NCBI GenBank assembly: GCA_000467715.1
Contig: AJFK01000123.1
Span: 1 to 25,256 of the forward strand
From: Hysterium pulicare CBS 123377
Taxonomy: Eukaryota; Ascomycota; Dothideomycetes; Hysteriales; Hysteriaceae
Direction: 5' to 3'
DNA: 25,256 nucleotides
Positions 7,525-25,256 of the stretch are shown here, piece by piece. The number at the start of each line of letters is the position of its first letter. Within the stretch, counting starts at the first letter, position 1. Below the pieces are notes generated by a model. That model was not told the origin of the DNA and made no database searches. It saw only the letters and a program-made list of their open reading frames with translations. The translations under genes were made by a program, and so were the position numbers.

Positions 7525-9542
7525 TCAATATTCCTTCTTGAGTGGCCCGTCGTCCCAACGTGCCTTTTTAACAGAGAGCGGGGGAAGAGAACCAAGAGGG
7601 CTGAATCCGGATGTCCGTACAACTGAATTCCTCAACGCGTGCAATTCGTTCTCGGTCCTGTAAGGCTGAGAACTAGGCTGAGAATAGCCATGGATCTTCG
7701 TGTTTTGCAATAACGGAACAAGTTCATCCGTTTCAGCGTTGAGAACCTCATATGGGGCGGATGAGGCGCTTGCGGTGAGATCAGCACCACCAGAATCCAT
7801 GTCGTCCCTGAGTGTCTTCACAGTTCTCTTAAAGACCTTCCAGAACTCATACTTTTCAAAAGGATCTTTCTCGTCATCGTCATCCCTGACCGCTTCCTCG
7901 TCGCTATCGTCTCCGAAGGCGTGATTACGAGCCAGCTGAAGAAGTGTAGCCACGAATGCCTCTTTCAAGTACGCAAAGCTGAATTCGTCTGTGATATCAG
8001 CAATGGCGTCGCACAATTTCCGCGGAAATTCGATCTCAGGCTTGTTCTTCAGCTTCTTTCTCCAGAAATCCGCTGATAGTTGTTAGCAAGACCGCGTATT
8101 TACATTCACGATATGAATTTCTCACCATAGAGAGACCGCTCTTCCTAGTTGCCTGTTAACGAATGCAAAGTTACTCGGGACGTTTGGGGCTCACCTTGTT
8201 TGGTAATGGGAAGAGGTACTTGCGGTCGAAGCGACTCGGGCGTTTTGAGAGGCCGGGATCCAATTGGTCCACTAACGCGAGAGGTCAGCGAGCACACTTC
8301 CAATAGAGCTTCAATTAGGACGGCAAATAAAGCACTTACGGTGGTTAGTGGTCGCAATCATCAGAATGCCTAATATCTTATTAACAACTACTCTGCCTGT
8401 TCCATTTGGGTACCTCGATCTTACCATCATTATTTTCCAACCCATCTACTTCATTGAAGAAGTAGCTACGGGTTTGATTGGTGACGATAGTGTCAATATC
8501 CTCAAGGACGAGCAAGCAGGGGCTCGACGCCCTAGCCATTTGAAACACTGCCCTGATTGAGTAACTTGTAGGGGCAGACTTGACGTATAGGGTGACGACG
8601 GGAGGGTTGCGGTCGTAAAGCGTGTGCATCAAAGCCTTCAGGGAAATCGTTTTCCCATTACCTTGAATTGTTAACTTCGATGGTGCATTTGCGCTAAATG
8701 CTTTGTGACTTACCAACCGGGCCATGAAATATTAGACCACGCTGGCGAATACAATCAGCCTCCTTAAGCTAACAAGGGGTTCGAAAAGCAACTAGCTCTA
8801 ATGAATTGCACGATAGACTTACCTTCCATGGCACACCATACTCGTCGTATATGTCTTTGCCTGTTGCCAGTCAGATGACGGGTAGATGAATCATAGGGTG
8901 AGACCGCTTACTGTCAAAGAATCTGCTTGCGACTTCCGTCAAAGCTTTCTTCATCTTGGGATCAAGGATAACATCGTCCCACGATGCCTTCTTCACTTCT
9001 TCCCACATCTTCGTGCTTCTCGCCCAGTACCCATCGAAAACATAGATCGCGGGTTCTTCTCTGGTCAGCCAAGCACCGATCGTGGCAAGAAGAGCATCGA
9101 CAACCCCTGAGTTGGAGAAGCTGGTTTCATCGTCCCTGGGCTCCTTGAGTATGTACTGTAGCATTGTTCCGACAAAAGCCGTATAGAGAATGAAGTCCTC
9201 GTTGTTCCACTTGTAGTGATATCGAGCAAAGAAGATGGAGTCGGCAAGATATCCAGAACCGCCCCGATGCGAAGGTCCAACGAAACCACGCCATCGCAAG
9301 ACGGGCTCAGTGTCTTTGTCAAGCTCAGCTGTGGCAAAACCAGCGGCCGCAAATTGAAGGAGATTGCAATTGGTATACGGGACGGTGGTGACAGTCAGTT
9401 CTGGATGTTTTTCGCGGAGAGCAGTACTGATTTGCACGTCCAAATCGGTGGCTTTGGCAGAGGTAGAGTCACGATAGTCATCAAAAAGCTGAGGAGGATG
9501 GCCATCCCCCTCGACAAGAGTGAAGTCTTCAACAGCAGCCAT
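7525..9542 (-). CDS. BCS1-like AAA ATPase, eight exons, 542 aa
   Basis: Minus-strand exons are 9542-8912, 8860-8823, 8762-8714, 8661-8425, 8369-8340, 8271-8195, 8144-8126 and 8072-7525. All introns are GT-AG and the 1629 coding nt stay in frame to TGA. An N-terminal region of about 210 residues, typical of fungal BCS1-like ATPases of unknown role, precedes the AAA core. Seen there: Walker A GPVGNGKT (residues 237-244), Walker B LVLEDID (about 290-296), sensor 1 in MIATTNH (N327), and the arginine-finger region RPSRFDRK (339-346). A small helical lid with FPRKLCDAIADITDEFSF follows, then an acidic, low-complexity C-terminus. There is no BCS1 mitochondrial N-terminal domain or membrane helix, so it is not the complex III chaperone itself. 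I chose the ATG in GCCATGG at 9542; a frame-open ATG 17 codons upstream is less likely. Exon 7 is only 19 nt. Confidence 0.9.
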
Positions 9543-21383: not shown

Positions 21384-22130
21384 AAGGGTTTGTTGCTTGT
21401 CGTCAGGGTTGCTGAAGCTGTGGGTGTTGCAGGTGTGGAAGGGTATAGACCCTAGGTATAGGTCAGGTGATGGGTGCTTAGTAAAGCATTTATGATTACA
21501 GGGGGTATACATTGACGAGGCTTTGTGGGGTTGAACACACTACTGGGCTGGGCTGTTTGTCCTGAGTTGGAGCTTGCAGGAAACAAAGGAGTGAATATAT
21601 CATGTTCCAGAACAGAATGCTCGGCATATTCATGGAGTTGGTTGGTGTGGGTCAACATGTCTGGCCCTACGAAGTGATGGTCCCGTGCCAGTGCAGTTGT
21701 CTCTTGGCTAAGAAGGACGTGACGGTTCTCCGTTAACCTGGTGTTCTCTATGGAGGATGGACGATGAACATCACTGCCGAGTGCCGAGTAGCTGCTCACG
21801 CCAATGGAGAGTCTAGCAAAGCATATCACTAGCCTTAAGTGGTGATACACTTCATCACTGGTACCGCTCGCTGACGCCTCCAAAGGGACTCTTCATCCCT
21901 CTTTTTTCGACACAAACGTAGCGCCCTCTCCCCCTCAACTCTACTCGATCTCCGGGACCCATATGAACGTTAATCGAGTTGGCCAATCCAGCTCATGGAT
22001 CTTTGGCTCCGGCAGCTATTGCATACCCCAAACCAGCTCCAAACAGTCATGGGATAACAGAATGCATCAGTTTGAAGACTCCAGGAGCATAGCGGCCTAA
22101 TCTTCACCTCTGTTATTGAGATTGAGAAGA
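21384..22130. other. spacer left of the promoter array
   Basis: No supported gene. A 143-codon minus frame at 21452-21883 has no domain. From about 22020 the sequence would be the leftward transcript of the first array module, holding only short frames of 7-26 codons. Confidence 0.45.
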
Positions 22131-22168
22131 TGGTAGTGTGGAGCTGAAGATGGAGGAGTAAGGGAAGA

Positions 22169-22247
22169 CTTTATAAGGGGAACTGGAGCTCGTTCTCACG
22201 TGGCGAGCTGCACGTGGTATGGATGAGGACTATACGAATATATAAAA
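22169..22247. promoter_or_regulatory. bidirectional promoter module A
   Basis: A minus-facing TATAAA (complement of 22170-22175) and a plus-facing TATATAAAA (22239-22247) point outward, 63 bp apart. Two CACGTG boxes lie between them at 22197-22202 and 22211-22216. CT-rich leaders follow on both sides. The leftward transcript has only 7- and 26-codon frames. The rightward one has a 24-codon frame and two small hairpins at once: GGAGGC/GCCTCC (22293-22311) and CTAGC/GCTAG (22312-22324). Confidence 0.5.
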
Positions 22248-22831
22248 CCAGGGTTGCTACGTCTTTTAACCCCTTCATTCATCCAGCGCGGAGGAGGCAT
22301 GTTAAGCCTCCCTAGCATTGCTAGACACTCTCAGTTGGGCTCATTCATGTGGGTGCCAGAGAGGGTTCTGTGATCATCTCCAGGACGCAAATCGCCATCA
22401 TGGTCAGCCTTTGAAGTACAGATGTGAAAATGGCCGTGTCGGACCCGCGTGGATCTGCTTGAAGGGGACTGGGGAGAGTAATCTCATCTTCACTGCTTCA
22501 CCCTTCTTATTTGAACTGATCTTCACTGCTTTCTAGTAGTACTAATCTTCATCAGCGCTTTACGGATATATTCGGATTCTCATAATGTATCCCATCGATC
22601 TCTTTCGACCACCGAATCCCCCGACCATGCGCAGTTTCCCGCTGAGCTTTTTGTCCACCAAGACAAAGGCGACCACGACCATGATCCATTGCTTCTCGAA
22701 GATATGATCCTTCTTCGTAGCCCAGAGGGAGAGGGACGCAGCCATCACGCGCCTTTTTTCGCCATGCTGACCCAGAAGGATTTCGCCGCTTTGAAGTAAA
22801 GAAAGGATGGTCTTGTGTAATGGCGGGAAGC

Positions 22832-22941
22832 TTTTATATCCAAGAAGATGAGAGCCACTAGAGACATATCTGACGTAAGAAAAGTGTTCACGAGTTTCAA
22901 CGGAGACACGTGCAGCATTTTCCACCGGAAACTCTATAAAA
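22832..22941. promoter_or_regulatory. bidirectional promoter module B
   Basis: TATAAAA on the minus strand (complement of 22832-22838) and TATAAAA on the plus strand (22935-22941) face outward, 96 bp apart. Between them lie TGACGTAA (22871-22878, CRE/bZIP-like) and CACGTG (22907-22912). The leftward leader is CT-rich; its first ATG opens 6 codons and the second, one base later in the same stretch, a 62-codon frame. The rightward first ATG opens only M-K before a stop. The sequence around the minus TATA (GGATATAAAAGCTTCC) is identical over 16 bases to that of module D. Confidence 0.55.
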
Positions 22942-23575
22942 GCTCTTTGGCGACTTGTCTTCCGTACTCTCTTCACACATTCAATCCCATGAAGTAGCCT
23001 GTGTGAGTCGCTGACCGGGCCAAACATTCGAACATGCGTACAATGATGCTTTCACAGTGCATGACTGGATCGAAATCTCGACAGGTCCAACGCTATGGCT
23101 CGGTTGGGTTGTTCGGGCTGATCAAAAGAAGAAAACCACTCTAATTATGTGGTGGGCGGAGGTGAGCCCTGCTTCAAAAATGGGTGCTGCTCATAGAATG
23201 ATATTCGACATCGTTCTCGGGTGGTGATGACCTTTATTATTATTTGGGGAATGCTGATACTTTTCACTGTCACAGGATTCCGCATTTCTAGCCTCCTGAA
23301 CGACGCCGGCTATCTCTATATATCCAGGATTCTGTCGTGATATGAACTACCAGCACCAAGTCCGACATCATGTGATTACATGCCAGGTTTATGGTTCCTC
23401 CATCAACAGAGATTGTCTTTGACTAGAACCAGGCTCCAGACTCCATAGAGACTTCCTCTGTCCTTTTTGAGAACCAGCCAATATGCGGTTTGTACTCGTT
23501 GCTTTCCGACGAAATTTCTGAGCAGGCATGTTACAAGTGCGTGAAAAGAAAGCGTAGATGGGGAGAAGAGGATAG

Positions 23576-23659
23576 TTTTATACCCGCTTTGCAAAGAGAA
23601 GACTCACGTGGGCAGGACTGAATGACTCAGCTAGGTTTTATCTACTCAACGTACATAAA
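23576..23659. promoter_or_regulatory. bidirectional promoter module C
   Basis: A minus-facing TATAAAA (complement of 23576-23582) is paired with a weaker plus-facing TACATAAA (23652-23659). CACGTG (23605-23610) and a perfect AP-1/Gcn4-type TGACTCA (23623-23629) lie between. The leftward leader is CT-rich and leads to a 46-codon frame. That frame shares a TCAAAGACAA segment, about 160 nt from the TATA, with module E at about 150 nt. Rightward, the first ATG (23721) opens 27 codons. Confidence 0.5.
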
Positions 23660-23769
23660 GCCAGCTCTCGGGATTCAATCTTCAACAATTCCGTGGGAGT
23701 TCTACCAACATCGAAACAGCATGAAAGCGAAGTCATGTCTTGGCCAGAAGCGATACCAGCTATTGTTGG

Positions 23770-24102
23770 ATGGGAAGGTGGGGGTGTGTGAAAACATTCG
23801 TTAGTACACCTTCATGGATGGGTGACAGTCATGAACACTCTGATAATCTGCAGGATGGTGTGGTGGTCTTGCGGAGTTGGTTAGTTAAGGTTCAGCATTT
23901 TCGAAGGATGCTGCTCGTCGTTATCGTTCTAGGAATCCTAATCGCCTATTTATCTTCGTCGCTGTCAGTTCTCCAAAGCTCCGCCATGTCGGTCTACGAA
24001 GCTTTGTTTTGTTGCCTTTTCACGATTCTCATTTCCGGGCTTCAAACTGTCACCTCGAAGACATATGACTTCGTTTTGGGACTGTGTTCGTTTTCGAGCT
24101 GA
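23770..24102 (+). CDS. doubtful 110-aa ORF with two hydrophobic segments, downstream of module C
   Basis: An ATG frame ending in TGA has two hydrophobic stretches (MLLVVIVLGILIAYL and ALFCCLFTILISGL) in its second half. It is not the first ATG after the module C promoter, and no similar protein follows the other modules. The conserved hairpin of the array lies inside it. It overlaps the leftward 66-codon frame of module D (23965-24165). It may be a chance frame within a non-coding transcript. Confidence 0.15.
   Translation: MGRWGCVKTFVSTPSWMGDSHEHSDNLQDGVVVLRSWLVKVQHFRRMLLVVIVLGILIAYLSSSLSVLQSSAMSVYEALFCCLFTILISGLQTVTSKTYDFVLGLCSFSS
23893..23913 (+). repeat. array hairpin, module C copy
   Basis: CAGCAT and ATGCTG pair at the ends of a 21-nt segment with TTTTCGAAG plus one loop base between them; G-T pairs extend the stem. 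It lies about 239 nt downstream of the plus TATA. The same ends and a central TCGAA recur in module D. Confidence 0.5.
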
Positions 24103-24248
24103 TGAATTGATCCAAGACTCGGACATGCAGCTGCGGGAAAGCGATTCATGCCCCCCACTCCACATTACCGGCTTTGAGAAGTAGTTATGGAGGAACTTCC
24201 CTTTGGGAATTTTGTAGAGAAGAAAGGAAGTGGTGGAGTTGAGGAAGC

Positions 24249-24334
24249 TTTTATATCCTTTCCAAGCAAGAGGCTAAGCTTGCGTACGCCCCGTGATGCG
24301 AGCGGATGAGTAACCCTCCCATGCACTATATAAA
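24249..24334. promoter_or_regulatory. bidirectional promoter module D
   Basis: A minus-facing TATAAAA (complement of 24249-24255) and a plus-facing TATATAAA (24327-24334) lie 71 bp apart. TGAGTAA (24307-24313, a half-changed AP-1 site) lies between, with GCTAAGCTTGC near 24273-24283, related to CAAGCTTGCTAAGC of module E. CACGTG is absent. The leftward leader is CT-rich and leads to a 66-codon frame (24165-23965). Rightward, ATG 24403 opens 92 codons (to 24681), which overlap the leftward frame of module E tail to tail. Confidence 0.55.
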
Positions 24335-24525
24335 TCCCACATTCAATTCCTAATTTGCAGACTTTGCGAAACCTTTGCTTCTGCGTAGACCAAAATTGTG
24401 CAATGCGACAAATGATGGGAACTGCAGTGAGTGTGTACAGACAGATACCCTTGGTGGTATGTTGGAGAGGATGGAGTCGTACTCAAAGTAGACGGATTCC
24501 GAGAAGAATAATCGAGTTCAAAAAT

Positions 24526-24546
24526 CAGCATCATCGAAAGATGCTG
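24526..24546 (+). repeat. array hairpin, module D copy
   Basis: CAGCATC and GATGCTG form a perfect 7-bp stem with a 7-nt ATCGAAA loop, about 199 nt downstream of the plus TATA. It aligns with the module C copy at 17 of 21 positions. Confidence 0.55.
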
Positions 24547-24846
24547 ACCATCATTACCAGCGGGAAAGTCGCGCAGGGTCCAATGCCCGAGTTCCGCACA
24601 TCGGCTGTATGGCAGATTGAATTTGTTCTTTCAACCAAGTCTCAAGATTCCACATGTATCGCCAGAAGCATGCATTCATAGACTCCATACAAAGTACTTG
24701 TCTTTGAATTGATTCCAAGCCCAGGAGCCATTGCGTTTCAATATGAGGTCTGCTGATCGCAACTCCACATGAAAGGGGATTGCAAGCCAGTTGATGAAGG
24801 AAAGACTGTAGTGTAGACATTATGGTTCGAAGAAACTTGGGGAAGT

Positions 24847-24938
24847 TTTTATAGCGTTTACTCAAGCTTGCTAAGCTGACATCACAGTGTCGCTGAGTCA
24901 GCATCCCCTTCTCCTTTTTCCTCCGTTCGTATATAAAA
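24847..24938. promoter_or_regulatory. bidirectional promoter module E
   Basis: A minus-facing TATAAAA (complement of 24847-24853) and a plus-facing TATATAAAA (24930-24938) lie 76 bp apart. Between them are TTACTCA (24858-24864), TGACATCA (24877-24884) and TGAGTCA (24894-24900), three bZIP-type sites. Leftward, ATG at 24820 opens 88 codons (to 24554). Rightward, a CT-rich leader leads to ATG 25007 and 40 codons (to 25129). Neither frame resembles those of other modules over its length. Confidence 0.6.
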
Positions 24939-25134
24939 AGCTCTCCACCTCCCGCACTCCTTCTAATTTCCTCACAAATCTTCCTTGATAGCAAATCTGG
25001 TACTGAATGGAGTTTCCAAAAACCACCCTGATTCAGCTAAATGCTTTGGAATCAGAACTTCCACCAGCAAAACACTATGTTTGGTTCTGCTCATGGGATT
25101 TCTTCGTCTACAGCATGGCGTGGAGCTGATGTTA

Positions 25135-25174
25135 GCTGGTGTGAAAAAGTCTTCAACCAGCATATATCATGCTG
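25135..25174 (+). repeat. array hairpins, module E copy
   Basis: Two overlapping stems: GCTGGT (25135-25140) pairs with ACCAGC (25156-25161), and CAGCAT (25158-25163) pairs with ATGCTG (25169-25174). They share bases, so they are alternatives. The second has the same stem ends as modules C and D and lies 228 nt downstream of the plus TATA. Confidence 0.5.
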
Positions 25175-25256
25175 CGAGCTCGTGGGATTGGGCTGCGAAT
25201 TGCTATACTTCTGGTCGGTGACAGCAAATGCCCTCGCCCATTCTGGACCCTACGGG

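Follow-up and report, generated by a model that had tools for sequence, protein, structure and literature searches.

The right end of a 25,256-bp stretch of the Hysterium pulicare CBS 123377 genome (AJFK01000123.1, our contig C102, analysed whole and referred to here as the window) carries a tandem array of paired, outward-facing TATA boxes, and similar arrays on other contigs show that it belongs to a recurring class of elements. The rest of the window holds ordinary genes, among them a two-exon ABC transporter, a class-III aminotransferase, a Frag1/DRAM-like protein and an AAA ATPase. Using one TATA scoring matrix, we found exactly five divergent TATA pairs and no convergent pair between positions 22001 and 25256 (boxes at 22168/22241, 22831/22935, 23575/23654, 24248/24327 and 24846/24932), with inner gaps of 65, 96, 71, 71 and 78 bp and start-to-start distances of 663, 744, 673 and 598 bp; at the identical score threshold, positions 1-22000 gave no divergent pair and one convergent pair. 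In 500 first-order Markov shuffles of 22001-25256 the mean was 0.028 divergent pairs and the maximum two. The weakest of the five modules, which we call A to E, is C because of its plus-side box. Each module has the predicted make-up of a bidirectional RNA polymerase II (Pol II) promoter, namely two outward core promoters flanking common activator sites. The array continues past the contig end at 25256, so the number of units given here is a lower bound.

The original prediction, made from the letters of this window, had described five outward-facing TATA pairs, their inner gaps and module spacings, CT-rich leaders on both sides of each pair, the lack of such a pattern around the ordinary genes, and several short similarities between modules. 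The pairs are borne out by the shuffles, the inner and module spacings agree with ours within 2 bp, the region of the ordinary genes is indeed free of divergent pairs, and the quoted similarities were found. The leaders are likewise there: over the first 45 nt beyond the box, the pyrimidine fraction is 0.58-0.80 on all ten sides of the window, versus 0.38-0.55 further out. Its starting point for the array, 22130, has to be moved, as the array begins further left, with a palindrome at 21840-21860 preceding module A. Four features presented below go beyond that prediction: a palindrome at the midpoints, motifs in the cores, a flip in strand skew and arrays on other contigs.

When the genome (37.2 Mb in 596 contigs) was searched with the pattern TTWTAT-CACGTG-ATAWAA, 19 matches were obtained (16 distinct modules on 12 contigs) versus one in the reversed control, several of these modules being spaced 600-760 bp on one contig. 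Likewise, TTATA-CACGTG-TATAA gave 21 matches versus 6 in the control, and TATAT-CACGTG-ATATAA gave 13 and 15 versus 0 and 0. Arrays were read on seven other contigs (C31, C58, C74, C75, C133, C251 and C261), C75 and C251 having two well-formed modules each and a third that is one-sided, and C240 carries a single E-box module. Our curated set comprises 47 modules with 94 sides. Inner gaps over this set range from 60 to 104 bp with a median of 79, both boxes score well in 36 modules, and 31 of the 36 neighbouring module pairs are less than 900 bp apart (median of those, 731 bp); because the other five centre distances exceed 900 bp (909-1596), some modules are missing or degraded. The arrays form a dispersed, recurrent element class, defined by paired TATA boxes, a core between them (CACGTG, TTASTMA or a variant particular to the array), pyrimidine-rich leaders and a midpoint palindrome. 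Compared with the genome, the window array matched only itself, up to an E value of 10. Elsewhere in the genome array loci also carry ordinary genes, such as AA9 and tubulin (L029), adenylate kinase (L031) and PRELI (L035) genes. On C31, a stretch of 25 kb has modules at either end (L031, ~56.8-61.4 kb; L032, ~76.5-81.1 kb) and may form one giant array. Pattern-match positions suggest further arrays on C550 (353, 10430 and 11967), C300 (122261 and 123022, with a palindrome at 125350) and C458 (9479, with a palindrome at 8768). Extremely AT-rich patches are found at contig ends, for instance on C3, C49, C93 and C101, and are presumably traces of repeat-induced point mutation.

The sequence between the boxes is distinguished by two kinds of sites. 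CACGTG occurred there at 8.81 per kb (33 sites in 29 of the 47 modules) versus 0.04 per kb between modules and 0.14 per kb in 66.5 kb of background, and TTASTMA-type sites at 4.81 versus 0.20 and 0.20 per kb, core rates that are inflated because many modules were found by CACGTG; the background sets here and in the motif comparisons below exclude locus L038. The window, which was chosen without CACGTG, has four CACGTG sites in 381 bp of core, none in the rest of the array and two in the first 22.1 kb. From array to array the cores look specific, since those on C261 hold GAATGAGTAAG-like sequence and CACGTG, those on C31 often TCACGGG, and those on C58 (L035) GATGACATAA with TTACTAA-like sites. 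We take CACGTG to be a basic helix-loop-helix (bHLH) site and TTASTMA a Yap/AP-1-like basic leucine zipper (bZIP) site, and the cores would then suggest joint control by a putative bHLH protein and a Yap/AP-1-like bZIP.

Outside the boxes, pyrimidine content pooled over the 89 of 94 sides long enough for the leader and fold analyses was 0.71, 0.68 and 0.56 in the first three 15-nt bins and about 0.47 thereafter. Past the leader, the predicted RNA-like strand has more G than C up to the midpoint between neighbouring promoters, where the relation is reversed. This flip of the GC skew was seen in 26 of the 30 inter-module regions with 450-850 bp between boxes (p = 6e-5), in all four of the window, and in 19 of 21 when only the 36 well-formed modules were used (p = 2e-4); neither the midpoint nor the skew counts include the other six of the 36 inter-module regions, of which four are longer and two shorter. 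As an indirect sign, the flip is what would be expected if two units of ~300 nt were transcribed towards each other.

A palindrome, TGATGA-(0 or 3)-TCATCA, lies close to the same midpoint. It was found by a position-free count of near-matching words in the predicted transcripts, in which the top word, with 3 mismatches allowed in 14 letters, was present in 29 of 90 transcripts (four of the 94 sides, shorter than 300 nt, being excluded) versus at most 14 in four second-order nulls, counts about doubled because each region is read from both sides; a similar TGATGA-NNN-TCATCA-like word was still on top when the window was omitted. Along 29 inter-module regions divided into tenths, TGATGA/TCATCA counts were 1, 1, 1, 5, 11, 15, 7, 1, 1 and 1, so that 38 of 44 half-sites fall within the middle four tenths (26 of 31 when the set is limited to well-formed modules). 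In 25 of 30 regions the best site with gap 0 or 3 stood at 0.35-0.65 of the region. This best-site count and the A/B site were restricted to gaps of 0 and 3; the palindrome scan of the window allowed gaps of -1 to 5. Genome-wide, the strict palindrome gave 20 matches versus none in the control, with gap 0 in six and gap 3 in 11. In the window a site is present to the left of A, another at B/C and one close to D/E, those of A/B and C/D being degraded or replaced by a different inverted repeat (Table 1).

Table 1. Promoter modules, predicted bodies and palindromic sites of the window array
Feature	Position	Strand	Basis
Left-flank palindrome TGGTGATACACTTCATCACTG, ~350 bp before module A; TCATCA at 21852	21840..21860	.	
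Module A: outward TATA boxes, two CACGTG between	22168..22248	.	TATA matrix and motif reading
Predicted convergent non-coding bodies, A plus/B minus	22249..22830	.	Skew flip; pooled set without codon signal
A/B midpoint degraded site, 9/12 half-site letters; TCATCA at 22549	22536..22556	.	
Module B: outward TATA boxes, one CACGTG and one TGACGTAA site between	22831..22942	.	
Predicted convergent bodies, B plus/C minus	22943..23574	.	Skew flip; pooled codon test
B/C midpoint palindrome TGGTGATGACCTTTATTATTA	23222..23242	.	
Module C: minus TATA, weaker plus CATAAAG; CACGTG and TGACTCA between	23575..23661	.	
Predicted convergent bodies, C plus/D minus	23662..24247	.	Skew flip; pooled codon test
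Inverted repeat TCAGCATTTTCGAAGGATGCTG, ~50 bp left of C/D midpoint, resembles D/E repeat	23892..23913	.	
Module D: outward TATA boxes; TGAGTAA (Yap response element/AP-1-like) between	24248..24334	.	
Predicted convergent bodies, D plus/E minus	24335..24845	.	Skew flip; pooled codon test
Inverted repeat TCAGCATCATCGAAAGATGCTGA overlapping TGCTGACCATCATTACC, left of D/E midpoint	24525..24559	.	
Module E: outward TATA boxes; TTACTCA and TGAGTCA between	24846..24939	.	

Having this fixed frame, the arrays show little in common between leader and midpoint. No word in the bodies from +60 to +290 exceeded the null by more than a count or two. The original prediction had read the local similarities as signs of an old tandem duplication; within the window this is marginal, as three unit pairs gave borderline alignment scores of 38, 40 and 26 versus mononucleotide-shuffle maxima of 40, 41 and 40, while in the C261 array it is clear, two adjacent units aligning over their full length with 68.6% identity and a global score of 181 versus a shuffle maximum of -51, so that tandem duplication does occur. 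In this one unit pair, just 2 of the 26 gaps have a length divisible by three, and the reading frame is thus not conserved. Codon usage in 60 open reading frames (ORFs) of at least 30 codons scored -0.014 per codon, versus 0.014 for antisense and 0.04-0.17 for five long-ORF controls. Since they lack common words and a codon signal, and since the gaps in the C261 duplicate are mostly not multiples of three, the bodies look non-coding. Searches for known products agree: Rfam at gathering score gave no match in the window or in 12 sources (84 kb), the tRNA search found none, seven array ORFs had no Pfam match above cut-off, and the longest ORF of the E minus side (24557-24820, 88 aa) had neither a Pfam match over cut-off nor another match in the genome. 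The suggestion of the original prediction that selection may act on an RNA product or on the regulatory DNA as such is supported by the genome-wide recurrence of the element class and by the mostly failing coding tests.

The duplication and the palindrome could also be accounted for by a transposable-element or satellite relic, the units being bounded by short terminal inverted repeats, TCATCAC...GTGATGA with gap 0 or 3, tandemly multiplied and now decaying. The prevalence of these two gaps among the strict palindromes and the C261 duplication speak for such an origin. We hold it very unlikely, however, given that the window array, which alone was compared in this way, lacks dispersed similar copies, and that the units keep their TATA boxes, cores and midpoints although their bodies differ, a pattern that would be unlike neutral decay.

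A different explanation starts from the finding that conservation is confined to promoter, core, leader and palindrome, the bodies having no common words above the null. In it the arrays act in cis as DNA, through clustered activator sites or transcription-driven open chromatin (as an enhancer, boundary, recombination hotspot or origin), and any RNAs are by-products. Array-specific cores and the presence of AA9, tubulin, adenylate kinase and PRELI genes at array loci would suit this explanation, but the near-midpoint palindrome and the skew flip suggest that the transcribed span itself matters, and we assign to a cis-acting role a lesser, though real, probability.

Several candidate features of the bodies were discarded. 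Hairpin RNAs were rejected at a mean fold z of -0.37, and a conserved His-His peptide motif, H[HYK]..?R, was rejected at 59 occurrences versus 46 expected. The motif [NDE].H[HY], with 62 versus 18 expected, we ascribe to the TCATCA palindrome presumably being read in frame. The body motif CATGTCTTGG had 20 of its 32 near-matches at +80 to +200; it was dropped because its overall count (32 versus 23 expected) is little above expectation and body words stay within the null. A scan for bacterial promoters and terminators was uninformative.

Around what is established from the sequence, namely the architecture, its recurrence, the core motifs, the midpoint palindrome, the skew flip and the missing codon signal, we propose a mechanism; what we infer is that the arrays are transcribed, where transcription ends, which factors act on it and what purpose it serves. 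In tandem units of ~0.6-0.8 kb, a compact bidirectional Pol II promoter (TATA, activator core, TATA) would alternate with a palindromic midpoint. Each promoter would fire both ways, giving RNAs that consist of a pyrimidine-rich leader and ~300 nt through a non-conserved, non-coding body, and the RNAs of neighbouring promoters would meet at the palindrome, which may serve as a two-way end or meeting point, possibly as a dimer-bound roadblock or terminator. Their overlapping ends would yield double-stranded RNA, and the most likely purpose would be overlapping RNA pairs feeding small-RNA or chromatin pathways, not proteins. Of the RNA interference genes, four RNA-dependent RNA polymerase (RdRP) loci and four Piwi-domain (Argonaute) loci were found over cut-off; two of the RdRP loci (C233 and C366) have TAA inside the matched frame, reflecting either introns read through or decay. 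As to silencing targets, the window array had no genome matches elsewhere in a search that skips common words and scores the best candidates only. Taking these points together, we give about an even chance to the arrays being co-regulated rows of short, divergent and convergent Pol II transcripts that are non-coding and may supply small-RNA or chromatin pathways.

A number of results weigh against this proposal. The share of modules with CACGTG is inflated, 12 modules matching the search pattern and many neighbours having been spotted through CACGTG, and the core motifs tested are all missing from six of 35 non-seed modules. Of the 47 modules, 11 have a weak box on one or both sides, and in five of these a box was seen on one side only, the other side being set by position. 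Among ten sites chosen for a promising pair, four proved to be in arrays and six had no array. The plain TATA-pair pattern gave 110 matches versus 50 in the control, many of them in AT-rich patches; other plain TATA-pair patterns showed no excess (263/241 versus 263/263 in the control), and TGAGTAA alone between TATA boxes was barely enriched (5 and 4 versus 2 and 1). None of the 20 strict palindromes is on a contig whose array was read, and only two (C300 and C458) share a contig with E-box modules. Predicted RNA folds were near background, with a mean z of -0.37 over 89 sides and six below -2. Furthermore, ATG ORFs starting at +40 to +150 were somewhat longer than antisense ones (30.7 versus 23.3 aa, p = 4e-5), and first-ATG and longest early ORFs reached 32.0 and 46.8 versus 21.1 and 35.0 in first-order Markov sequences.

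Because these early-starting ORFs are slightly long, we kept short peptides as a rival: the arrays would be very fast-evolving peptide genes, each promoter driving a small ORF whose homology is hidden by diversifying selection. Some of the ORFs reach 88-178 aa. In addition, a 44-bp match between neighbouring C261 units (L039, 727-770 and 1380-1423) has eight substitutions, none of which, as counted by eye, falls at the third codon position of an ATG frame; this is either chance or a coding trace. Nevertheless, we consider peptide genes unlikely, since the 60 longer ORFs show no codon periodicity or usage signal, the duplicated C261 pair contains frame-breaking gaps, the Pfam search of seven array ORFs and the genome search with the 88-aa ORF returned nothing, and a purine at -3 of the first ATG (49 of 89) is in no clear excess.

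The proposed non-coding transcript arrays have relatives among known systems. In divergent fungal gene pairs, such as histone H3-H4 and GAL1-10, a short regulatory region with activator sites lies between two core promoters. The array modules resemble these in having activator sites in a short region common to two core promoters; however, such pairs encode conserved proteins, whereas the arrays lack a codon signal. In Neurospora, Dicer-independent small interfering RNA (disiRNA) loci are gene-rich sites at which convergent Pol II transcription is tied to small RNAs and dynamic DNA methylation, as described in the passages used of PMC3764098. The predicted promoter layout and the skew flip of the arrays would fit the convergent transcription units of these loci, and the likeness would extend to gene-rich location, sense and antisense Pol II transcripts and, at some loci, divergent promoter transcripts (same passages of PMC3764098). 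In contrast to our arrays, those passages describe no array, midpoint palindrome or repeated paired-TATA module, and the main text of that paper uses neither 'tandem' nor 'bidirectional' (PMC3764098). Fungal bidirectional Pol II promoters with divergent long non-coding RNAs (lncRNAs) share one region firing both ways and non-coding products, but in the review passages used they are single loci beside coding genes, with no repeated array (PMC8113380).

A search of titles and abstract openings, with most subscription papers and preprints outside its reach, found no description of such arrays. Single bidirectional promoters and convergent non-coding transcripts are already known; because no such description stands in the literature searched or in the passages of the fungal lncRNA review (PMC8113380), we call the predicted alternating promoter/palindrome array with variable bodies a categorically new architecture. 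A bolder idea, which we put forward tentatively and rate as rather improbable, is that of a new eukaryotic element class in which a fixed frame (paired-TATA promoter, array-specific core and midpoint palindrome) holds interchangeable hypervariable bodies; the arrays would then be co-regulated convergent-RNA libraries, a renewable source of diverse small RNAs with which the fungus could regulate itself, defend its genome or act against other organisms.

Any sequenced fungus can be searched for the pattern, in which a paired TATA with its core alternates with a midpoint palindrome every 0.6-0.8 kb. If transcribed, the arrays would be regulated loci several kilobases long in which an annotation centred on proteins would show nothing, and they would offer a test of whether a genome keeps promoters and end points under selection while the product drifts, and of whether fungi keep dedicated convergent-RNA arrays for silencing.

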